From Candidatus Nanopelagicales bacterium (lineage in GTDB: Bacteria; Actinomycetota; Actinomycetes; S36-B12), in contig JAFMCP010000010.1 in the NCBI GenBank assembly GCA_017857705.1, positions 1 through 35,882 of the forward strand: 35,882 nucleotides of DNA. Reading direction: 5' to 3'. A model generated the notes under the pieces. It made no database searches, was not told the origin of the DNA, and was given only the letters and a program-made list of their open reading frames with translations. The translations under genes and the position numbers were made by a program. Below, piece after piece: positions 23,972 to 26,663 of this stretch. Within the stretch, counting starts at the first letter, position 1. The number at the start of each line of letters is the position of its first letter.

Positions 23972-25336
23972 TTAATAGTCTCCCCAAGCCTTTGCAGTAA
24001 TCGTCACATTTCGATTGGACATGAGAGCAACTCGGTCCCCTTTATCGCGCAATAGCGTTGAATCTCTACCCCAATACTGTGTAGAACGAGTTGGAGTTCC
24101 TTTTCCAATTCGAACAGTGAGAATCTTGCCGGGTTTGATTACCGAGTTAACCAGGAACGGGTAAGTGGAGACACCCCGCCGGAGGTAGTAGCCATCAAGC
24201 AAAACAGGATCAAGGCCATCATTTTTGATTCTTATATATTCCTGATTCGCACGCGCGGCCATTGACTTTGCAGTGGAGACCGCATTGACTTTTGTTATCC
24301 GCAACACGCCCTGCAAGGGATCTGAACAATCAAGGACGCACGGATACTCGTAGTAATTTCGCATTGCAGTGTTGCGATCCAACAAGTAGGCGCCATCTCC
24401 AAGGAATAATTTAGGTGCAATGTTGGGGAATAGCGCTGTTTCGGAGTTCATGTAGAGGTCACGTGGTTTAGGTGTGCCATTAACGCCAACACCGGCATGC
24501 ACCACTCGAAAGTCATTTGGTGCCAGCACCGATCCACCGGGAAAGTAAAACCAAGATGTCAAACTTGAGTCCCGTAGTAACCATCCTGTGAGGTCAACGT
24601 CTTGATCACCAATATTGCGAACAGTAATGAATTCCCCATTGATGTTTTCATTATCATTTCCTGGGGCATCCCAATTGACGATCACGCTGATATTGGCATC
24701 CGGTTGTTCAAGTGGCCCGCAATATTTTGGATTCCAAATCCCTCGATTTTCGAGTTGGGTTTGCGCGATCATGACACGATACTGGTAAGACAGTGAGGAC
24801 TCATTCTTGACGGTGAACCACATGGCCAGGCCGGACTGGGCAATGATCGCTTGGACATCAATGTCGTACTGTTCAGTGAGCGGATTCCAGGCAAATGCGT
24901 AACGTTGGATCCGGCCGCGATTCTCTGACTCCTTACTGAGTGAACGCAACTGCACTCGAGAGCCAGGCCGCAAAACAGACTTCAAGACCTCGGTTGCCTC
25001 TGCGCCTCCACACATATCGGCATCCCGGTGCACATTATTAAACCCACGAATTTCGGGAGTGTTAACTCCTAAAAGCCGAACAGTCACAAAATCTGATGTT
25101 CCATCTTCAATAAAACGAAATGTGTCGCCGTCGGCCACAACATCTACAACCCCGGTTTCTTGAATGGGAATATCGAGATAGCGTGTTTGAAATGAATTAG
25201 GGGGAGCAGCCTGAGCCGCCGGCACTCCCATGGGCACTGCCGTGGGCACTGCCGTGGACACTGCCGTGGACACTGCCATGGGCACTGAGGCAGCCAGCAC
25301 GAGTAGAACAGTCGCAACGCTTGCTACAAATTTCAT
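23972..25336 (-). CDS. Secreted thermonuclease-like protein with lamin-tail domains
   Basis: This is a 454-residue exported protein. A signal peptide (about residues 1-44, ending AAQAA) contains a repetitive Ala/Val/Thr/Pro stretch. Next is a staphylococcal-nuclease-like domain (about 60-195) with VVADGDTFRFI (Asp69, Asp71), VRLLGVNTPE (Arg87, Glu95) and a GRIQRYAFAW Arg. One Ca-binding Asp of the classical enzyme appears as Asn92. A lamin-tail domain follows (about 220-320; EFITVRNIGDQDVDLTGWLL), then a second, weaker one at the C-terminus (EYIRIKNDGLDPVLLDGYYL). Extracellular DNA/RNA degradation for nutrients is the likely role. The open frame extends to 25489, but the ATG at 25336 starts directly at the signal peptide. 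Confidence 0.88.
   Translation of the reverse strand: MKFVASVATVLLVLAASVPMAVSTAVSTAVPTAVPMGVPAAQAAPPNSFQTRYLDIPIQETGVVDVVADGDTFRFIEDGTSDFVTVRLLGVNTPEIRGFNNVHRDADMCGGAEATEVLKSVLRPGSRVQLRSLSKESENRGRIQRYAFAWNPLTEQYDIDVQAIIAQSGLAMWFTVKNESSLSYQYRVMIAQTQLENRGIWNPKYCGPLEQPDANISVIVNWDAPGNDNENINGEFITVRNIGDQDVDLTGWLLRDSSLTSWFYFPGGSVLAPNDFRVVHAGVGVNGTPKPRDLYMNSETALFPNIAPKLFLGDGAYLLDRNTAMRNYYEYPCVLDCSDPLQGVLRITKVNAVSTAKSMAARANQEYIRIKNDGLDPVLLDGYYLRRGVSTYPFLVNSVIKPGKILTVRIGKGTPTRSTQYWGRDSTLLRDKGDRVALMSNRNVTITAKAWGDY
25221..25291. repeat. 12-bp tandem repeat in the nuclease signal peptide
   Basis: Near-identical 12-mers (for example GGGCACTGCCGT at 25232-25243 and 25244-25255) follow one another to 25291, with a degenerate copy before them. 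They encode repeated four-residue Ala-Val-Ser/Pro-Thr blocks immediately after the hydrophobic core of the signal peptide. Confidence 0.9.
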
Positions 25337-25441
25337 GACGGTAACACCATAACCCGGATCAGAATTGGAGCCGGACACCCCTGAACTGAAAACCCCGACG
25401 CGGTTAAGCGACGCGGTAATGAGTCGATAAAAGGAATCCAC

Positions 25442-25470
25442 TTGGCAAATTATACCCCTGGGGGTATGAT
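25442..25470 (+). promoter_or_regulatory. Sigma70-type promoter with embedded CsoR-like operator
   Basis: TTGGCA (25442-25447) and TATGAT (25465-25470) are separated by exactly 17 bases. Inside the spacer is a perfect inverted repeat, ATACCCC-TG-GGGGTAT (25452-25467), the form bound by CsoR/CstR-type Cu(I) or persulfide sensors (family knowledge). It drives the Cys-rich gene at 25509, which has an AAAGG ribosome site. A bound repressor here would block RNA polymerase directly. No csoR gene lies in the window. Confidence 0.75.
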
Positions 25471-25508
25471 CACGATTCGAGCTGGTCAACCCGAAAGGTA
25501 ATTTCTCA

Positions 25509-25685
25509 ATGTGTCGTCAAGTGAGCTGCAAAACCTGCAAGAAGGCAACCTGGGCTGGTTGCGGAAACCATAAGAATGAAGTGCTTCGCGGCATCCCTAA
25601 GAATCAACGATGCGCATGCACGGCGGCGGACAAAGCGGCTGCACGCGCGAACAAGGGATTCTTTGCCAAAATTTTCGGTGGCTGA
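25509..25685 (+). CDS. Small Cys-rich protein, candidate metal- or thiol-responsive
   Basis: This 58-residue cytosolic protein has six Cys at positions 2, 7, 10, 18, 35 and 37, and His21. The pattern is MCRxVxCKxCxKxTWxGCGxH, then VxxxIPxxQRCxC. The CxxC at 7-10 and CxC at 35-37 could form a Zn or Cu(I) site. I recall small proteins of this pattern in other bacteria and fungi, without any known function. The basic, Ala-rich C-terminus (residues 40-58) looks helical. The gene is divergent from the nuclease and has a ribosome site (GAAAGG). Its promoter carries a CsoR-type operator, suggesting induction by copper or reactive sulfur. Its size explains why it is easily missed. Confidence 0.8.
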   Translation: MCRQVSCKTCKKATWAGCGNHKNEVLRGIPKNQRCACTAADKAAARANKGFFAKIFGG

Positions 25686-26360: not shown

Positions 26361-26663
26361 ATGGCTGAAGCTACGGGGGAGAACCCCACACACTTGAATA
26401 ATCACCACCTAGACACCCTCTCGGTTATCTACTCCCACCCAGTGAGCCACAACATTCGCTGGGCTGACGTGCTTCACCTCCTAGAGGCAGCAGGAACCGT
26501 CGAAGAGAAGCACGACGGAAAGTTCACCGTCACTCTCGGTGAGGAAACCGAAGTTTTTGACCGTCCGCATGGCAAGGACATCGATACCCAAATGGTTGTT
26601 GACCTTCGCCGGATGCTCAAAAATGCAGGCTTTAATCCTCGCCCCAAGGGTCAGGAGATTTAA
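26361..26663 (+). CDS. HicA-like small protein
   Basis: A 100-residue soluble protein with SHPVSHNIRWADVLHLLEAA, then HDGKFTVTLGEETEVFDRP, then TQMVVDLRRMLKNAGF. The beta-hairpin followed by a C-terminal helix ending in LRRMLKNAGF recalls the HicA mRNA-interferase/dsRBD-like fold. The usual GSH catalytic motif is not clear: only His at the HDGKF position and several N-terminal His are present. No HicB antitoxin is adjacent, so a classical toxin role is doubtful. It ends one base before the next gene, with which it forms a two-gene unit. The start is an ATG preceded by AAGG. Confidence 0.65.
   Translation: MAEATGENPTHLNNHHLDTLSVIYSHPVSHNIRWADVLHLLEAAGTVEEKHDGKFTVTLGEETEVFDRPHGKDIDTQMVVDLRRMLKNAGFNPRPKGQEI

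Follow-up and report, generated by a model that had tools for sequence, protein, structure and literature searches.

Which sensor controls a 58-residue, cysteine-rich protein whose gene stands behind an operator-bearing promoter, and what does the protein do? The question is raised by a 35,882-nucleotide stretch of the genome of a Candidatus Nanopelagicales bacterium (assembly GCA_017857705.1, contig JAFMCP010000010.1, positions 1 to 35,882), hereafter called the window. An initial annotation attributed the operator to the CsoR family of repressors and proposed that the protein responds to metal or reactive sulfur, perhaps as a Cu(I) chaperone or sponge.

A palindromic operator overlaps the promoter of a small cysteine-rich gene

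The palindrome, the promoter and the cysteine-rich open reading frame (ORF) that the initial annotation had described were all found where it had placed them, using an exact match, a promoter scan and the ORF itself. On the forward strand, a -35 hexamer TTGGCA (25442-25447) and a -10 hexamer TATGAT (25465-25470) are separated by a 17-bp spacer and score 10/12; shuffled versions of the 461-bp region are expected to contain 0.3 such sites. The palindrome ATACCCCTGGGGGTAT (25452-25467, forward strand), in which half-sites ATACCCC and GGGGTAT flank a central TG, has zero mismatches and is the sole such site within the window. It had been described as lying inside the spacer, which is correct for most of its length; its final three bases, TAT, also open the -10 box. 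A probable ribosome binding site GAAAGG (25493-25498, forward strand), read directly from the sequence, precedes by 10 nt the ATG of the 58-codon ORF (25509-25685, forward strand).

Across the 2.0-Mb source genome (161 contigs, 94% complete), just eight ATACCC-N2..6-GGGTAT sites are found, compared to none for a reversed-pattern control. A perfect ATACCC/GGGTAT dodecamer is likewise located no more than 150 bp upstream of 63/103 homologues but of 0/515 mononucleotide-shuffled upstream regions. Taken together, these two comparisons place the operator above chance.

Two other features of the window were observed near this locus. The signal-peptide region (25224-25280, reverse strand) of the divergent nuclease/lamin-tail protein (23972-25357, reverse strand) is built of short repeats (STAVSTAVPTAVP), and a 100-aa ORF at 26361-26663 (forward strand) weakly resembles HicA toxins (E 0.003, which does not reach the curated cut-off).

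Operator length separates copper and persulfide regulators

Members of the CsoR family can be divided into CsoR proper, with the copper ligands Cys-His-Cys (C-H-C), and CstR-like regulators, which have two Cys and lack the ligand His. Among CsoR genes that have a perfect site no more than 400 bp away, the operator is 17 bp long in 23/23, whereas CstR-like genes with a 16- or 17-bp site have the 16-bp form in 25/25. Over these 48 actinobacterial loci the association gives a Fisher p-value of 3e-14, which is optimistic because the loci share descent. One additional CstR-like gene, from Agromyces, has a 15-bp operator.

The difference agrees with published Streptomyces sites: the sulfane-sulfur repressor of S. 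coelicolor binds the 16-bp ATACCn6GGTAT (PMC7533328), and the copper CsoR consensus of S. lividans, ATATACCCCTNAGGGGTATAT, has an N5 spacer (PMC3902906). The window site has the 16-bp form ATACC-N6-GGTAT at the promoter, overlapping the -10 box, with N4 between ATACCC and GGGTAT as in the operators of CstR-like genes. The attribution to the CsoR family was therefore right, and by its sequence the window operator belongs to the 16-bp, CstR-type class.

Genes sharing the operator in the source genome

Seven of the eight sites in the source genome are 16 bp long and one is 17 bp long. The 17-bp site precedes csoR-copZ-copA (contig C67, locus L011). The 16-bp sites precede a rhodanese followed by a metallo-beta-lactamase (MBL)-rhodanese fusion (C13, L006), a second, lipoprotein-like rhodanese (C23, L007), a thioredoxin (C24, L008), a membrane protein with a CPVCN motif (C40, L009), a DCC1-like thiol oxidoreductase (C49, L010), the 58-aa gene, and a 38-aa paralogue of it (C137, L012). 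The rhodanese, MBL-rhodanese, thioredoxin and DCC1-like proteins act on reactive sulfur or thiols. The CPVCN membrane protein (L009:3205-3720, reverse strand) has no Pfam family, and in L228, L247 and L260 its relatives occur close to the small protein; it is a further unnamed member of the regulon.

The initial annotation had suggested looking for a CsoR-family gene elsewhere in the genome, and one is present, of the copper type: the single PF02583 protein of the assembly is a CsoR with Cys-His-Cys ligands in the csoR-copZ-copA locus. The same PF02583 search of the source assembly yielded no CstR-like gene. Five congeners (G005, G034, G043, G095 and G138) carry a CstR-like gene, either in addition to CsoR or in its place. 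In G005 the regulator (L263:8295-8555) lies two genes past argF, which is followed there by a PEP-carboxykinase-like gene and then the regulator. Source contig C24 (L268) is collinear with this region at 86% and ends immediately after argF; the 5.1-kb block that holds the regulator has no counterpart anywhere in the source assembly. The simplest reading of this arrangement is that the CstR-like gene of the source organism was probably lost in an assembly gap. Control of all eight sites by the single CsoR was also considered; the congeners with two regulators, together with the contig break, weaken this reading.

The operator is conserved upstream of homologues

The operator is kept upstream of orthologues, as the 63/103 homologues with a perfect site show, and a second sample agrees with this result. 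Among 80 named actinobacterial loci (Microbacterium, Agromyces, Cryobacterium, Arthrobacter, Corynebacterium, Rhodococcus and others), a site directly upstream is 16 bp long in 44, 15 bp in 3 and 17 bp in none, and most of the loci without a direct site are within operons that have a 16-bp site farther up. The sixth place of a -10 box starting inside the operator (TATnnT, operator position +18) is a T in 94/114 homologous promoters, which would make occlusion of RNA polymerase the natural mode of repression. By sequence comparison, the family of the 58-aa protein as a whole preserves the operator along with the geometry of the promoter. In several deep-branching members (L053, L063 and L071) the operator ends in the start codon (ATACCCTAGGGGGT followed directly by ATG). 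Transcripts of these genes would lack a leader, and a bound repressor would cover the point where translation begins. An operator running into the start codon was also seen in L050 and L072.

Departures from the 16-bp length are found in two side lineages. Agromyces has 15-bp sites at cstR/FAD-reductase operons (L195, L207 and L213) and at the small-protein gene (L186, L197 and L201). In genus g2, which belongs to the window's family, three genomes in which no CstR-like gene was detected (G087, G111 and G024) have 17-bp sites at the small-protein gene and at SQR-like or FAD-reductase genes; their sister species G014, with a CstR-like gene, has retained 16 bp. In the g2 species whose sulfur genes have 17-bp operators (L270, L271, L279 and L280), the only regulator found is of the C-H-C type, with Gln replacing Tyr before the first Cys, and it adjoins a type-2 NADH-dehydrogenase-like gene. 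A change of sensor in genus g2 is possible. Because it is SQR-like and FAD-reductase genes that follow the other 17-bp sites there, we read the change as a shift of the sulfur regulon, and in both lineages the predicted operator of the small protein follows the sulfur genes.

Homologues are found in persulfide clusters

On plasmids and chromosomes alike, the gene sits in persulfide clusters with a CstR-like regulator, rhodanese, DsrE, TauE/SafE, thioredoxin, MBL hydrolase and FAD-dependent reductase. Within 6 kb in the 80 named loci, a CstR-like gene is present in 46, a rhodanese in 48, an MBL protein in 21 and CopZ in 0; copA matches occur in 8/80, at the 26-35% identity of general P-type ATPases. 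Within 4 kb in the order, a CstR-like gene lies near the homologue in 27/103, and the corresponding count for CsoR is 0/44. Co-occurrence across the order gives p 2e-7 with CstR-like regulators and p 0.40 with CsoR. In this comparison and in the 4-kb counts, the regulator classes were set by profile score and residue-checked on a subset. No CsoR-family gene at all was found in 22/113 protein-bearing genomes, which are mostly small or fragmented. The window gene itself is a regulon member standing on its own, as had been proposed.

The gene is also carried on actinobacterial plasmids (78 records, mainly from Rhodococcus and Clavibacter) together with CstR-rhodanese clusters (L113-L118); most plasmid rows shown have no listed gene for it. 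The sole match in a viral collection (L269) stops at a contig edge beside phage-like genes and may be host flank.

A conserved small protein with putative metal ligands

The 58-aa protein has Cys at positions 2, 7, 10, 18, 35 and 37 and a single His at 21. Among congeners, pN of about 0.01-0.06 against pS of 0.26-1.0 points to strong purifying selection on the ORF, and this identifies 25509-25685 as a real gene. Using tblastn, homologues were found in 113/148 genomes of the order and in 42/296 genomes sampled over the phylum; in genus g42 (7-10 Mb genomes) the protein is missing from all eight sampled class members. Comparison with Pfam, NCBIfam, PHROGs and PDB sequences produced no convincing match, and no description of the small protein was found in the literature. 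The expectation of a conserved but uncharacterised family, of which this protein is the long form, is thus confirmed by its spread in the order and by the lack of a Pfam or NCBIfam model.

Residues C2, C7, C10, G17, C18, G19, H21 and C35 are fixed in 214 distinct sequences, which were picked partly by this conserved pattern; C35 and the C37/H38 positions were outside the selection pattern, and the pattern recovered a member in nearly every locus chosen by tblastn (104 members from 100 loci). At position 37, 117 sequences have Cys and 97 have Gly. A CxC motif alone is found in 111 sequences and a CxxH motif alone, mostly CxGH, in 96, while 6 have both and 1 has neither; exactly one of the two is thus present in 207/214. 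Cys outside the conserved positions is practically absent. Of the six Cys whose invariance the initial annotation had proposed to test, five are invariant, and in roughly half of the members C37 is replaced by a His at 38. Such an exchange would be typical of metal ligands.

We therefore delimit a conserved core at residues 1-38 (25509-25622, forward strand) with putative metal ligands C2, C7, C10, C18, H21, C35 and C37, based on the invariant columns, the C37/H38 alternation and the predicted structure. In the AlphaFold2 model (mean pLDDT 81, about 87-91 for residues 1-40) the core forms a hairpin and short helices, with the CxxC in the hairpin. Residue pattern and model are compatible with two paired Cys/His knuckles on a beta-hairpin scaffold, with zero profile or fold matches. 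A PDB fold search gave no match, so that the reading as a zinc domain draws on the residue pattern and the predicted model. Zinc-ribbon and treble-clef mini domains share with the protein a CxxC on a hairpin turn, a later CxC or CxxH pair and the Cys/His swap; they differ in that no significant fold or profile match links them, and the 58-aa protein has the additional invariant C2, C18 and H21.

Beyond the core, an FFxRLFG-like tail is present in 157/177 long forms; in the window protein it is a hydrophobic/basic C-terminal FFAKIFGG (25659-25682, forward strand; pLDDT <70). The tail is absent from the 38-aa paralogue MCSPAPCRSCNKITWSGCGEHVAEVMANVPAAQQCTCR (C137, L012:2365-2481), which is 44% identical and has its own 16-bp operator at L012:2306-2321. 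Long and short forms often coexist in one genome, sometimes as divergent neighbours (L084, L096 and L106).

A proposed role in the persulfide response

We are highly confident that the 58-aa gene is under CstR-type regulation. That the protein in addition has a sulfur-handling metal-thiolate function, as its residue pattern and model suggest, is the reading we favour with somewhat better than even confidence. Regulation is well supported, and the biochemistry is inferred.

By analogy with relatives that have been characterised, the operator would be occupied by a CstR-like repressor that has two reactive Cys and would block RNA polymerase. As persulfide builds up, the repressor Cys would become persulfidated and the repressor would leave the DNA, so that the gene would be expressed together with the rhodanese, the MBL-rhodanese (persulfide dioxygenase type), the thioredoxin and the DCC-type thiol oxidoreductase. 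The protein may fold as a tiny metal-thiolate domain, the metal probably being zinc, through C2, C7xxC10, C18, H21, C35 and C37 or H38. Its thiolates could take up sulfane sulfur, and the protein would then act as an acceptor, carrier or buffer that passes sulfur to the rhodanese, dioxygenase or reductase machinery. In the long form, the FFxRLFG tail may provide a means of docking to a partner or the membrane.

The closest described system is the sulfane-sulfur circuit of S. coelicolor (ScCsoR/SCO0620, persulfide dioxygenase, rhodanese and TauE; PMC7533328), with which the source genome shares the 16-bp ATACCn6GGTAT, rhodanese and persulfide dioxygenase targets and, in the family at large, a two-Cys CsoR-family repressor. 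It differs in that none of its four described genes encodes a small Cys-rich protein, and the targets in the source genome are scattered. CstR of S. aureus is described as the persulfide sensor of the cst operon (Luebke 2014, as cited in PMC7533328). This system shares the regulator subfamily (a Cys pair, no ligand His) and the kind of targets, but the 58-aa protein is not a TusA, rhodanese or dioxygenase. To our knowledge, the cst operon contains no such small Cys-rich protein.

Alternative explanations

The strongest alternative, to which we give about one chance in four, keeps the protein in the sulfur response as a structural zinc mini-domain that docks a rhodanese, an FAD reductase or, via its tail, the membrane, with no sulfur handling of its own. 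The Cys/His ligand alternation, the CxxC hairpin of the model, the conserved tail and the shared operons with rhodanese, FAD-reductase and CstR genes would all suit such an adaptor. The six Cys/His and the seventh position nevertheless exceed the need of one Zn(Cys/His)4 site, and the short paralogue shares the operator without having the tail.

Considerably less probable is the Cu(I) chaperone or sponge, in which the Cys would bind Cu(I) and copper would remove CsoR from the operator. Small Cys-rich proteins such as MymT of M. tuberculosis act as Cu(I) binders. A true CsoR (C-H-C) is, moreover, the only CsoR-family gene in the assembly, and in genus g2 a 17-bp operator at the small-protein gene goes with a C-H-C type regulator. 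A take-over by copper in that genus was rejected since SQR-like and FAD-reductase genes, and no copper genes, follow its other 17-bp sites, and its regulator stands beside the NADH-dehydrogenase-like gene. The copper chaperone is rejected on operator length (16 and not 17 bp), on neighbours (csoR 0/44, copZ 0/80, and clusters of persulfide detoxification) and on the CsoR co-occurrence. The csoR-copZ-copA regulon of S. lividans (PMC3902906) shares the repressor family and near-identical half-sites with the window locus but differs in its N5 spacer (17 bp, compared to N4 and 16 bp) and its copper genes, and it is unlinked to the 58-aa protein. MymT and CopZ resemble the protein in size, Cys content and control by a CsoR-family repressor; no sequence relation to them was found, the protein has no Pfam or NCBIfam metallothionein match at the curated cut-off, and Cys spacing and regulon differ. 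The Pfam search with the window protein returned no match and thus no HMA fold with MxCxxC, and weak HMA matches were seen in just 7/71 members (best E 0.097). Of the two options in the initial annotation, the copper one therefore falls and the reactive-sulfur one stands, on the 16-bp site and the persulfide-detoxification clusters of the homologues.

It is very improbable that the ORF is a Cys-rich leader of a functionless peptide that senses cysteine supply by translation, an attenuator of the polycysteine kind described in mycobacteria: its shortness, its Cys content and the operator that sometimes overlaps the start codon of a leaderless mRNA would fit, but the pN/pS values reject it, the Cys, His and Gly are spaced and invariant, and the gene is often alone or last in its operon. 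A chance palindrome beside a spurious ORF is the least credible explanation of all, given the operators conserved against the shuffles and the selection on the protein.

Implications for the actinobacterial persulfide response

In the actinobacterial persulfide response, the 58-aa protein is a component that is very common and has had no name, and the proposal of a copper function should be abandoned. The gene is often without annotation because it is so short. In these genomes, the 16/17-bp rule allows the sites of copper CsoR and persulfide CstR to be distinguished by eye, so that their regulons can be separated from sequence alone.

We tentatively hypothesize, at less than even confidence, that these undescribed and widespread metal-thiolate proteins, 38-60 aa long, form a family with a core effector function in this response, as a dedicated sulfane-sulfur carrier or sink whose long (tailed) and short forms are made together. 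If true, it would take a carrier or sink role that has so far been given to TusA, DsrE and rhodanese domains. Because the regulator is known, the role of the small protein is directly testable. The actinobacterial defence against sulfane sulfur has so far consisted of repressor, dioxygenase, rhodanese and exporter; the small protein would be a fifth, very common and as yet unnamed component.
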